The position numbers and the translations under genes are program-made. Under the pieces are notes generated by a model that saw only the letters and a program-made list of their open reading frames with translations, searched no databases and was not told where the DNA came from. 64,000 bases of DNA from Metabacillus litoralis (lineage in GTDB: Bacteria > Bacillota > Bacilli > Bacillales > Bacillaceae), in the NCBI RefSeq assembly GCF_007994985.1, contig NZ_VOQF01000006.1, positions 372,001 to 436,000 of the forward strand, written 5' to 3'. Shown here in pieces: positions 5,849 through 41,837 of this stretch. How positions within the stretch are numbered: the stretch's first letter is position 1; each line of letters begins with the position of its first letter.

Positions 5849-6035
5849 AAAAATCACCTCTTATTTTTATATACCCCTTTTTTTGGAGAGATAACCATCA
5901 TAACTTTAGCTTTTCGATCACCATTGATTCTGTTAAGATAGAATTTGTCGCTTAATCAATGTGATAAGAATATCGTTGTACTTTCTTATCTATACATATA
6001 CGTTAGTTATTTCTATTTTATGGGAGGTGAAGCTT

Positions 6036-8312
6036 TTGAATTCTGCATTTTTTAATGGTCAAATTATTTCTTTGCTGCATTTACCTCGTGAAGATTATCA
6101 AAGAGTATATGAAGCAAGTTTAAAAGATGATATAGCATGTGCTGTATGCAAACACCCCATAAAAATGTATTTAGGGATCAACAAATCACCTCATTTCTAT
6201 CATTCTAATATGGAACTCAATAAAAAGTGTCAAGAACAACTAATTGAAACGCCTACTATTAAAGCTCAAGAAATGACTGAAACAGAAATCGGTAATGATT
6301 ACTACAATGAAAATGGCTTCCGAATTCCTAAATCAAGAAGCATTGGCACTGTTGAAAAGCCCAAGGAATCAAAGTGGCAAAAACCTATAACGATAAAAGG
6401 TCGAGCACCAGTTTCTTTAAAAATAAAAACACCATCACAGCTTCTTGGAATTCCACTTGATCACGAACAAAAGGAAGCTGTTACAACGATAGATGGACCT
6501 TTGCTCGTTTTAGCTGGAGCAGGTAGTGGGAAAACACGTGTACTTACAACTCGAGCATTATATATGATGCAGGAAAAAGAAATTGATCCTAAATCAATTA
6601 TGCTTGTTACTTTTACAGCTAAAGCTGCTCGAGAAATGAAGGATCGTTTAGCACAAAACAGTAAAAACTCGACTGTTGGACTCAATCAGTTAGTGATTGG
6701 TACTTTTCATAGTATTTTTTATAAAATGCTTATTCACCACAATAGTGAAAAATGGAATGGGAAAAATTTATTAAAATGGGACTGGCAAAAGGAAAACTAT
6801 TTAAAACAATCATGTCGAGAATTAAGCATTGATGAAAAAGATTTTCCTTTTGATCAAGCTATTCAACAAATAGGGTATTGGAAAAACACAATGAAAACCC
6901 CTGGTGAAATAAAGCCTGCTGATGATTGGGAAGAAACTGCTTTAACGTTGTTTAAGGAATATGAGGAGCAAAAGCGAAAACACAGGCAATTCGATTTTGA
7001 TGATATGCTTGTTCAATGCTATGAGATGTTAAAAGAAAATAGTACGTTATTAGAAGCATACCAAAAGAGATTTCACTATTTTTTAATTGATGAATTTCAA
7101 GATATTAATCCAGTACAATACAACTTAATGAAGCTTTTATCACGTCACACAAACAATCTTTGTGGAGTTGGAGATGATGATCAAACGATTTATAGCTTCA
7201 GAGGAAGTGAGCCCTCTTTTATTCTCAATTTCAAAGAAGAATTTCCTGATGCTAAAATTATCTCTCTTTCTTCTAACTACCGATCAGATCACCATATTGT
7301 GTCTACAGCTAATGAAGTGATCTCAAAAAACAAAAAAAGATTAAGTAAAAAAATGATTGCTCAGTATCAGTCAGAAACATCACCTATTTGTTTTTTTCCT
7401 TATGATGAAGAAGAGGAAGCAACTTTAATCATAAATGATATGAAAGAAAAAATTGAACTTGGTGCAAATCCTGATGAATTTGCTGTGCTTTATCGAACAC
7501 ATACAAGTGGACGAGCAGTTTTCGAGAGATTTGTTACATCAAGTCTCCCTTTTACAATAGAAAAAGGTCAGAACTCTTTTTATGAGCGCAAAATGGTTCG
7601 TGGTGTTCTTGCTTACTTACGCTTAAGCGTAAATCCAGATGATACGGATGCAATAACAGATTTTATTAGGGCTCTCTTTTTAAAGCAAAGCACGTTAAAT
7701 GATGTGAAAGCTTTATCGATATTACATGACTGCTCTCTTCTTGATGCTTTATTACATGTAAAGGGTATTCCAGCATTTCAAATATCAAAAATTAATAAAA
7801 TCATTCCTCGAATAAGCTCTTTAAAAACTGAAAAACCCGCTATTGCGTTAGGTATTATCGAAAAAGAGTTAGGATTTACCGATTATTTAAAGAAACAAGG
7901 TAATGAAGGAAACTCAATGGACAGGGGTTCAGATGATTTAAATGATTTAAAAGTTGTAGCTAAGAAGTTTCTTAATGTCGACGAATTCCTCCAACACACA
8001 AATCATATGATTTCAACTCAACATGCATTAAAGGGACATTCGCATGATACAGGAGTCCAATTGATGACAGTTCACCGAGCAAAGGGTCTTGAATACAAAT
8101 ATGTTTATATTATTGGGGCAGTTGATGGTTCACTTCCACATGACTTTTCATTAGAATCTGCAAGAAAAGGAAACTATGAATTTTTGGAAGAAGAAAGACG
8201 TTTACTTTATGTTGCCATGACAAGAGCAAAAGAACATTTATATATTTCTTGTCCTTCAAATAGACGAGGAAGAAAAGCAACAACTTCTCGTTTTCTAAGG
8301 CCATTACTTTAG
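6036..8312 (+). CDS. yjcD: YjcD, UvrD/PcrA-like superfamily 1 DNA helicase with CoiA-like N-terminal module
   Basis: The 758-residue protein carries the full SF1A motif series: Walker A GAGSGKT (about residue 160), motif Ia VTFTAKAAREM, motif II LIDEFQD (about 350), motif III GVGDDDQTIYSFRG, motif IV SSNYRSD, motif V TVHRAKGLE (about 677) and motif VI LLYVAMTRAKEHL. It should be an ATP-driven 3'-5' DNA translocase or helicase. Before the helicase core, about 110 extra residues contain CAVC, then G, HFYH and a later C, the same pattern as the N-terminus of CoiA in this window. The TTG at 6036 follows GGGAGGTGA and gives a length close to B. subtilis YjcD; a longer frame from 5961 has no such site. 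Confidence 0.9.
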   Translation: MNSAFFNGQIISLLHLPREDYQRVYEASLKDDIACAVCKHPIKMYLGINKSPHFYHSNMELNKKCQEQLIETPTIKAQEMTETEIGNDYYNENGFRIPKSRSIGTVEKPKESKWQKPITIKGRAPVSLKIKTPSQLLGIPLDHEQKEAVTTIDGPLLVLAGAGSGKTRVLTTRALYMMQEKEIDPKSIMLVTFTAKAAREMKDRLAQNSKNSTVGLNQLVIGTFHSIFYKMLIHHNSEKWNGKNLLKWDWQKENYLKQSCRELSIDEKDFPFDQAIQQIGYWKNTMKTPGEIKPADDWEETALTLFKEYEEQKRKHRQFDFDDMLVQCYEMLKENSTLLEAYQKRFHYFLIDEFQDINPVQYNLMKLLSRHTNNLCGVGDDDQTIYSFRGSEPSFILNFKEEFPDAKIISLSSNYRSDHHIVSTANEVISKNKKRLSKKMIAQYQSETSPICFFPYDEEEEATLIINDMKEKIELGANPDEFAVLYRTHTSGRAVFERFVTSSLPFTIEKGQNSFYERKMVRGVLAYLRLSVNPDDTDAITDFIRALFLKQSTLNDVKALSILHDCSLLDALLHVKGIPAFQISKINKIIPRISSLKTEKPAIALGIIEKELGFTDYLKKQGNEGNSMDRGSDDLNDLKVVAKKFLNVDEFLQHTNHMISTQHALKGHSHDTGVQLMTVHRAKGLEYKYVYIIGAVDGSLPHDFSLESARKGNYEFLEEERRLLYVAMTRAKEHLYISCPSNRRGRKATTSRFLRPLL

Positions 8313-8402: not shown

Positions 8403-8657
8403 TTATTTTTTATTCATCATTTTAGAAATTGTATTAAAATCAAGTTTTTCTTTACCATTTACAATTGAATTAACAATTTTGTCTTCCATTTCTTTTGAAA
8501 CTGGTTTGTTAGCAATTTGAGATACTCGCTGAATAACTCCACGTACTGTTTTTTCATCTTGAAAGTTTGCGCCTTGTAAAGAGTTAGCCAAAGATAAAAC
8601 ATCATTCATATTTACACCAGTTTTGCCTTCAAGATTTTTAAAGAATTTGCTATCCAT
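8403..8657 (-). CDS. spoVIF: SpoVIF, stage VI sporulation protein F
   Basis: The 84-residue product aligns by eye with SpoVIF (YjcC): FFKNLEGKTGVNMNDVLSLA, then NFQDEKTVRGVIQRVSQIA and a lysine-rich end. In B. subtilis SpoVIF is needed for late coat assembly and spore resistance and is linked to GerE-dependent coat gene expression. The ribosome-binding site AGGCGGG precedes the start. It lies next to other small sporulation genes and just before the coat cluster, which fits this role. Confidence 0.88.
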   Translation of the reverse strand: MDSKFFKNLEGKTGVNMNDVLSLANSLQGANFQDEKTVRGVIQRVSQIANKPVSKEMEDKIVNSIVNGKEKLDFNTISKMMNKK

Positions 8658-40640: not shown

Positions 40641-41837
40641 CTATAACAACTTGAATTTAGACAATAATTCCTGATCACTTTTTAAAAGATCTTCGGTTTT
40701 ACTTTTCCACACCATGTGTTTTTCCTTAATAAATGTATTTGTATCGCTTCTTTTGATGATAGACATTTGACATAGCTTCAGTAAATAGCTTTTGATCACA
40801 TAGGAGTAATGAAGATTTTTATGCAGCAAACGTCTAATCGTTATTAGCCCCGCTTGTATTTTAGTATCGATAAAAAAATACACATCACGAAAGCTAAAAT
40901 GAGCTCCTAACCTAAGTTGATCAATAAAAATCAATATCCAGCTCTGCCAGATAAAAACGGGTGACTCTATCAAGTAGTTTGTAGCTAGTGGAAGAAATGC
41001 CAGCGTTGGTAAAGAGGAAAGCGGCAGCTGCTTTGTTTTATACAAAAAGATATTTAATGCATGTGTTTGCTTTGTTTTAAGTTGTGAGGAGTGAAGACGG
41101 AAGCTCTTTATTTTATTAACCCATGCTTGGATAAGCTGTTCAGTAGGATACATGTCACGAAATAGCTGGGGTAAAGAAACTCTATGCAGTGGAGTGTGTG
41201 TTGCTTGTGCAATGATTGATCTTTGGGAGAAAGGCATAATATTATGTAGCATAATAAGCATTTTCTGTTCAGAACAATATGCAATAATAGTAGGCGGTTT
41301 GTTTTGCTTATGAATATGTACAAATAGCCATTGAAAGCCTGTTAATTGAAATGAGAGAGAGCCTGTTCTTTTAATAGAATTGGCTCCTAGTATCCATAAA
41401 TCATCAATCCCTGCTTTTTGAAATTCTCTTGATCTTTTCGTAATCAGCTGATGATCTATTTTGGCGCATTGAAATTCTATAGCTATTTGCTTTTGTTGAT
41501 GTATGATCAAAAGATCTGGTCTTTGTTTTATGCTCTCTAAAAAGTATTCAAGCTTAACTGAAGAAATAGAGTCTTGTTTATCTAACCAATGAAACAAATC
41601 ATACTTACCTTTACGGTGGTACTCACTTTCAGCACTACTTTCTAATAATGAACAACCAGTTAATTTCTTATGAGCAAAATGTGATGTGATCACCGTACCA
41701 ATTTTCAAATCTAATTCACTAGAACATACAGGGCAAATAAACCGAGATCTTCCCCTCAGTTGTTTTAATTTAGCGTGTGACCATTTTTTCTCAGCAAGAT
41801 TCACTTTGTTACCATCTTGATCGAGTGCAATAAACAC
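40641..41837 (-). CDS. coiA: CoiA, competence protein (nuclease-like)
   Basis: The 398-residue protein starts with a Cys/His module (FICPVC ... G ... HFAHKKLTGC), followed by the CoiA nuclease-like core: QRPDLLIIHQQKQIAIEFQCAKI (D...ExQ of a restriction-endonuclease-like fold). CoiA (YjbF) is needed for recombination of incoming single-stranded DNA in transformation. The start is a GTG after GGGAGGAGATTAA. Position between mecA and pepF is conserved, although cls and a repeat copy now intervene. Confidence 0.9.
   Translation of the reverse strand: MFIALDQDGNKVNLAEKKWSHAKLKQLRGRSRFICPVCSSELDLKIGTVITSHFAHKKLTGCSLLESSAESEYHRKGKYDLFHWLDKQDSISSVKLEYFLESIKQRPDLLIIHQQKQIAIEFQCAKIDHQLITKRSREFQKAGIDDLWILGANSIKRTGSLSFQLTGFQWLFVHIHKQNKPPTIIAYCSEQKMLIMLHNIMPFSQRSIIAQATHTPLHRVSLPQLFRDMYPTEQLIQAWVNKIKSFRLHSSQLKTKQTHALNIFLYKTKQLPLSSLPTLAFLPLATNYLIESPVFIWQSWILIFIDQLRLGAHFSFRDVYFFIDTKIQAGLITIRRLLHKNLHYSYVIKSYLLKLCQMSIIKRSDTNTFIKEKHMVWKSKTEDLLKSDQELLSKFKLL

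Follow-up and report, generated by a model that had tools for sequence, protein, structure and literature searches.

Architecture of YjcD and CoiA

The window analysed here, a stretch of 64,000 nucleotides from Metabacillus litoralis (contig NZ_VOQF01000006.1, positions 372,001 to 436,000 of the forward strand; coordinates below are counted from its first letter), contains the genes of two otherwise unrelated DNA enzymes, namely, yjcD, which encodes a superfamily 1 (SF1) helicase, and coiA, which encodes a nuclease-like protein. Judged by sequence profiles, YjcD opens with a module of approximately 65 residues that is homologous to the Pfam domain CoiA_N (PF25164), the domain that also opens CoiA. 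An initial annotation, made from this DNA alone, had proposed that the two proteins share a Cys/His module, and the comparison of profiles and predicted folds bears this out: the modules are homologous and probably bind metal.

The yjcD gene (6036..8312, forward strand) codes for a PcrA-like helicase of 758 amino acids with a TTG start at 6036, a delimitation that is supported by the open reading frame (ORF), the ribosome-binding site GGGAGGTG (6022-6029) ahead of the TTG, Pfam matches and an alignment with PcrA; the program-listed ORF begins further upstream. Matches to the Pfam families UvrD-helicase (260.4 bits) and UvrD_C (160.6 bits) place the protein among the SF1A helicases and define its core (6456..8252, forward strand). 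YjcD residues 134-754 align with the PcrA of the same genome at 34.6% identity, so the motor is of the PcrA/UvrD type, and the parts without a counterpart in this alignment are the last ~108 residues of PcrA and the first 133 of YjcD. PcrA has a C-terminal Tudor domain, in place of which YjcD has the N-terminal module; the Tudor family PF21196 is not found in YjcD, and a search of the whole genome at E <= 1 returned the PcrA locus only. YjcD does not reach the cut-off of the PcrA equivalog family (452.3 versus 911.2 bits), nor does it have a Pfam match to CoiA_nuc or CoiA_C. The GajB and RTasHel profiles of PADLOC also match YjcD; these matches fall on the widely shared UvrD core (residues 138-755 in the matches listed), and we did not count them as membership in either family.

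The module itself, of the zinc-ribbon type, spans residues 1-70 (6036..6245, forward strand) and is followed by a linker of about 70 residues (6246..6455, forward strand). In an alignment of 41 sequences this linker is variable save for one conserved patch, GFR-x-PK-x-R-x-I, at residues 94-103 (6315-6344, forward strand).

The coiA gene (40641..41837, reverse strand) encodes, in this order, CoiA_N, the nuclease-like CoiA_nuc and CoiA_C (56.4, 170.8 and 66.5 bits, respectively). In CoiA, therefore, the module precedes a nuclease core, as had been annotated, whereas in YjcD it precedes an SF1 helicase. The CoiA module comprises residues 2-63 (41649..41834, reverse strand; Pfam and AlphaFold support) and includes C35, C38, H53, H56 and C62. 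A nuclease domain of CoiA had previously been predicted from residues 56-209, and the tabulated part of that work lists, besides it, only an otherwise unknown C-terminal domain (PMC1189080).

Homology of the two N-terminal modules

Both N-termini display the annotated motif at the expected place, as C-x2-C-x8-G-x5-HFYH-x8-C in YjcD and C-x2-C-x8-G-x5-HFAH-x5-C in CoiA. The spacing is the same up to HF-x-H (the six residues that had been counted before HFYH in YjcD are in fact five, as in CoiA), so that C35, C38 and H56 carry the same numbers in both proteins when counting begins at the start codon. The F..G..V/I.L opening that had been noted as common to the two is indeed present in both window sequences, but its glycine is not conserved among YjcD proteins, where the conserved part of the opening consists of A4 and the I/V-x-L strand.

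Such a motif could, in principle, have arisen twice, in two unrelated small zinc ribbons that resemble each other only through a generic C-x2-C and a later His and Cys, and the direct comparison leaves room for this: the two window sequences by themselves align weakly (21 bits, 7/25 identical residues), and the YjcD copy of the window stays below the curated CoiA_N cut-off of 26.3 bits, with 14.6 bits for the whole protein and 19.5 bits for the fragment. When the CoiA_N model was run over the whole genome, CoiA was its top match with 60.1 bits, YjcD followed with 19.1 bits (E 0.0054), and the place ranked third was already at E 0.475. The cut-off is passed by five of ten chosen YjcD orthologues (29.4-32.9 bits), and in 250 genomes of the class the CoiA_N model alone detects at least seven ORFs of 770-819 amino acids above it, together with many ORFs of the size of CoiA.

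The comparison of families is far stronger than that of the window pair. Matches that cover the N-terminus of YjcD turned up in 43 of the 60 relatives, among them the genome of the window, and yielded 39 modules after the removal of two broken copies and the merging of identical ones; CoiA was detected in all 60 relatives, with 50 loci translated into 49 distinct modules. Aligned by hhalign, these two sets gave a probability of 97.3%, a P-value of 2.7e-11 and a score of 54.1 over 51 columns. The highest score in 150 column shuffles was 28.5 when the Cys and His columns were held fixed and 17.0, again in 150, when these were shuffled as well (in both sets, columns with >=30% gaps were left in place). 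Even with Cys and His masked on both sides, the score was 25.0, and none of 150 masked shuffles rose above 18.9. Smaller alignments (29 YjcD versus 31 CoiA modules) gave 97.0%, and a wider YjcD set (40 versus 31 CoiA modules) gave 97.7% and a P-value of 1.3e-12 over 62 columns that include the last Cys.

In a one-by-one scan against 24736 Pfam models, with its zinc families among them, CoiA_N was the most frequent match at E <= 1, with hits from 35 of 40 modules of YjcD, the best at 4.7e-8, followed by DUF7830 (30/40) and DUF7828 (24/40), while each further family was matched by at most six. CoiA_N outscores both DUF families in every member listed, and the latter, given their matches to YjcD modules, look like kin of CoiA_N. 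The DUF7830 model detected only ORFs of CoiA size and YjcD size, in 2 of 249 genomes, which adds no further architectures, and when 40 modules were scanned against the PHROGs, four nameless families were matched, by one member each. Conversely, a profile built only from YjcD modules was run on the 17 genomes that lack a module-bearing YjcD: its best match in the whole genome was CoiA in all 17 (E 3.2e-8 to 0.0027), at positions that agree with those from the separate search for CoiA, and no ORF of YjcD size appeared up to E 1.

The predicted folds agree with this picture. AlphaFold, provided with alignments, modelled the modules of YjcD and CoiA with a predicted local distance difference test (pLDDT) score of 88.8 and 82.1, respectively, and in both models two strands and a helix are followed by the C-x2-C turn and two more strands, the last of which enters F-x-H. 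The modelled modules thus share the core order of fold elements, and the model of YjcD has in addition a short strand (residues 33-35) and a terminal helix (residues 59-70). In a Foldseek search of the BFVD viral predictions, the YjcD model matched best a phage protein labelled 'Competence protein', with an E-value of 8.2e-4 and a probability of 1.00 (query template modelling (TM) score 0.70, 1.8 A over 59 columns, 24% identity). Taken together, the fixed and masked shuffles, the scan of Pfam, the search of the 17 genomes and the viral fold match make convergence of two zinc ribbons extremely improbable, and we reject it. The initial annotation would have been refuted by a lack of profile or structural similarity between the two N-termini, and similarity exists in the profiles as well as in the predicted folds.

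Two further explanations of the shared module were considered and discarded. The module is not an artefact of a wrong start codon or reading frame, as it lies in frame behind the ribosome-binding site and recurs in 79 of 80 loci. Nor was a recent swap of the module between coiA and yjcD seen: a FastTree phylogeny of 71 modules splits the 31 CoiA copies cleanly from the 40 YjcD-type copies with support of 1.0, although its ~70 columns fix neither a root nor a direction.

The putative metal site

Conservation was assessed in 100 distinct YjcD modules that had been chosen by a pattern demanding C-x2-C and F/L-x-H, so the invariance (100/100) of three putative ligands, Cys35 (6138..6140), Cys38 (6147..6149) and His56, the second His of HFYH (6201..6203; all on the forward strand), was required by the search. 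The fourth putative ligand, Cys65 (6228..6230, forward strand), is more informative: 89 of the 100 modules have a Cys within 14 residues past His56, with a gap of 4-9 residues (4-5 in CoiA), and in the remaining 11 of 11 a His stands at +7 from H56. This replacement of the fourth-ligand Cys by His is the best sequence evidence for a bound metal. The swap is seen in Sutcliffiella and its close kin, at eleven loci, and may reflect one or two events.

The first His of HFYH behaves differently. His53 is His in only 38 of the 100 modules, whereas CoiA retains it in 50 of 50 copies. Of the three Cys and two His whose conservation the initial annotation proposed to check, orthologues thus keep C35, C38, H56 and, mostly, C65, but not the first His, and because this residue is poorly conserved we take C-C-H-C to be the likely ligand set of YjcD. 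The module thus likely holds a metal via C35, C38, H56 and C65, with zinc as the putative ion.

Several points caution against too firm a reading of the module. Its affiliation with CoiA_N falls short of the curated cut-off in the window copy, as described above, and neither module model found a fold match in the Protein Data Bank (PDB) at E <= 0.001, so the metal site is a prediction. We know of no experiment on the module, and its role in targeting, discussed below, is proposed by analogy. An autoregulatory or structural role is compatible with the same observations, and a motor of this kind does not require the module, given that a sister clade of helicases has neither the module nor the Tudor domain.

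Conservation, genomic range and sister helicases

To keep the choice of loci independent of the module, a helicase stretch of YjcD (residues 220-312) was searched against 84,980 genomes. Among the best 80 of the 299 loci, the hidden Markov model (HMM) of the YjcD module, which was built partly from the same species, matched 79, the strict pattern C-x2-C...F-x-H was present in 78, and an HMM built only from CoiA matched 74 (E <= 0.01, 80-sequence set). The only locus of the 80 that lacks the module, L144, lies on a contig whose yjcD copy has internal stops. In-frame stops interrupt yjcD in two related genomes (L020/L144 and L026); either some strains can do without the gene or these assemblies contain errors.

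More broadly, when 299 genomes of the class were searched with the YjcD-module profile, 38 had an ORF of >=700 amino acids with the module, 14 of them in the order of the window and 24 in another family, f52, which is probably Paenibacillaceae. All 11 such ORFs from outside the family of the window that were compared score higher with YjcD than with their own PcrA, the YjcD score including the module. At the level of the phylum, the profile matched in 5 of 299 genomes, so at that sensitivity the module is rare outside the class; the same search also gave a match of 551 amino acids in one genome (G602).

CoiA occurs without a module-bearing YjcD in 17 of the 60 relatives, and YjcD occurs without CoiA_nuc (E <= 0.001) in 19 of the 38 genomes, all 19 among the 24 of f52; the two proteins occur independently of each other. 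In several f52 genomes, the long YjcD-type ORF is the only bearer of CoiA_N at E <= 0.001 among the matches listed. CoiA_N was also seen in ORFs of ~470-600 and of 150-220 amino acids in several genomes, which possibly represent further architectures.

In eight genomes (seven of the 17, plus one that has YjcD), helicase matches start only at YjcD residues 135-140. Two of these helicases are PcrA (66-68% identity to the genome's own), and the other six (L249-L254) resemble the core of YjcD (35-37% identity, 355-382 bits) more than they do PcrA (264-303 bits). Unlike PcrA, these six have no Tudor domain; they align with PcrA only up to residue ~649 of 755, which leaves its last ~100 residues unmatched, and neither module HMM detects CoiA_N in them. 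Five of them carry a terminal C-P-x-C tail that may form a further metal site. In a PcrA-rooted tree of 27 sequences, all helicases with the module, among them those of f52, fall into a single clade (support 0.996), with the six that lack it as the sister clade (0.999). The module, then, marks the YjcD clade, and it was either gained in this clade or lost in the sister. The remaining ten of the 17 genomes have no helicase match at E <= 1e-100, the threshold of this search.

Upstream region, neighbouring gene and literature

About 100 bases upstream of yjcD lies an extended -10-like element that is conserved among relatives, TGTTAAGAT (5931..5939, forward strand). A relaxed form of it, TGnTA[AT][GAC]AT, is present in 83 of 121 yjcD upstream regions, which were drawn from two overlapping sets of loci, versus 3.8% of shuffled ones, and the element looks like a housekeeping extended -10. 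In the 300 bases upstream of yjcD, the best LexA-like site has four mismatches, and there is no perfect ComK half-box; the region upstream of coiA contains no perfect ComK half-box either. On the other side, yjcD is followed tail to tail by a gene on the reverse strand (8403-8657) that we take to be spoVIF-like, an arrangement that recurs in 50 of the best 80 loci.

In relatives of Bacillus, YjcD is a second helicase of the PcrA type, conserved but hardly studied. A table of Bacillus subtilis DNA-repair genes groups yjcD, citing a study of UV-C-induced transcripts, with the vegetatively transcribed genes and does not place it in the spore or germination classes (PMC1976550, in its tabulated part). 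Two Bacillus papers give yjcD as a table entry only, and many other papers that contain the name, to judge by their titles, concern nucleobase transporters or Escherichia coli; in the parts of the open-access literature consulted we found no mention of the module in YjcD. The architecture may already be listed in protein databases for those orthologues that exceed the Pfam cut-off.

Possible functions of the module

The homology invites a role in transformation, in which YjcD and CoiA would cooperate on transforming DNA and the module would bind the same competence-specific substrate or partner in both. Besides the module that the two proteins have in common, this is favoured by the observation that, in competent B. 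subtilis, CoiA is recruited to the pole at which DNA is taken up (PMC2727465, PMC3527212). However, each protein occurs without the other (17 of 60 and 19 of 38 genomes, as above), the module phylogeny shows no recent exchange, and yjcD lacks a perfect ComK half-box, although this last point is weak because coiA gave none either. We therefore consider a joint role in transformation unlikely, and the suggestion of the initial annotation that YjcD shares the substrate of CoiA in this process is not supported.

A second idea is that YjcD is a helicase of spore or germination DNA repair whose module recognises DNA damage in spores. Spo0A is present in all 38 YjcD genomes, and the spoVIF-like neighbour accompanies most of the best loci. 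These are weak, correlative indications: Spo0A is found in 247 of the 299 genomes, 209 of which have no YjcD at that sensitivity, the YjcD genomes cluster in a few families, and the neighbour is convergent and so does not form an operon with yjcD. The upstream element that looks housekeeping and the vegetative class to which yjcD is assigned in the published table also speak against it, so that a spore role, which the initial annotation had likewise mentioned, appears very unlikely.

Alternatively, the module could be an internal regulator, folding back onto the motor to govern unwinding, instead of a targeting device. UvrD-family motors are controlled by accessory domains, and the conserved GFR-x-PK patch of the linker could dock on the core. 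Yet an unrelated nuclease bears the same module, as does, to judge from a profile match, the Druantia protein DruB, so a portable binding domain fits better, and we regard internal regulation as rather doubtful.

The likeness to DruB, an anti-phage protein, is seen at the level of its profile. The DruB1 profile of PADLOC (Druantia, PDLC00005) matches 27 of 31 CoiA modules (best 4.2e-7) and 5 of 40 YjcD-type modules (best 4.1e-4), with positions 17-54, out of the first ~55 of the DruB profile, corresponding to CoiA residues 26-63. No DruB was found in 299 genomes of the phylum, in a search run without a positive control. A CoiA domain has also been reported in a defence protein of E. coli (PMC9519451). 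As a lead, these similarities of sequence suggest that CoiA_N is a portable module of enzymes that meet unusual DNA.

The explanation that we favour, and consider probable, is that YjcD is a PcrA/UvrD-like motor that lacks the Tudor domain and instead carries the CoiA_N module as an N-terminal targeting domain. The module would consist of two strands, a helix and two strands around one metal, with C35, C38, H56 and C65 as its ligands, the last of them replaced by His in one clade, and it would hang on the linker of ~70 residues. It may bind DNA, such as a single strand or a junction, or else a partner common to its bearers, and bring the motor there; presumably, the same module places the CoiA nuclease. 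What we infer here is zinc as the metal, the flexibility of the linker, the targeting, the bound ligand and, equally, the 'DNA-handling' role that the initial annotation had assigned to the module. An analogy is offered by PcrA, whose Tudor domain binds RNA polymerase and is attached by a long linker that appears to be disordered; UvrB is predicted to be bound in the same mode (PMC8318588). Given the absence of the Tudor domain and the presence of the N-terminal module, YjcD resembles a motor of the PcrA type that bears another address label, at the opposite end.

It is conceivable, if somewhat unlikely, that CoiA_N reads a particular state of DNA and has been fitted to three different engines, the CoiA nuclease, the YjcD helicase and DruB. 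That state could be, for example, an incoming or processed single strand, an end or a junction, and YjcD would then be a resident motor that is sent to foreign or damage-derived DNA independently of competence. Neither sequence searches nor Foldseek found a solved relative of the module, and so a single structure would be of use for CoiA and YjcD alike, and perhaps also for DruB. For YjcD, the module that it shares with CoiA provides a recognisable and mutable handle on the function of this helicase.

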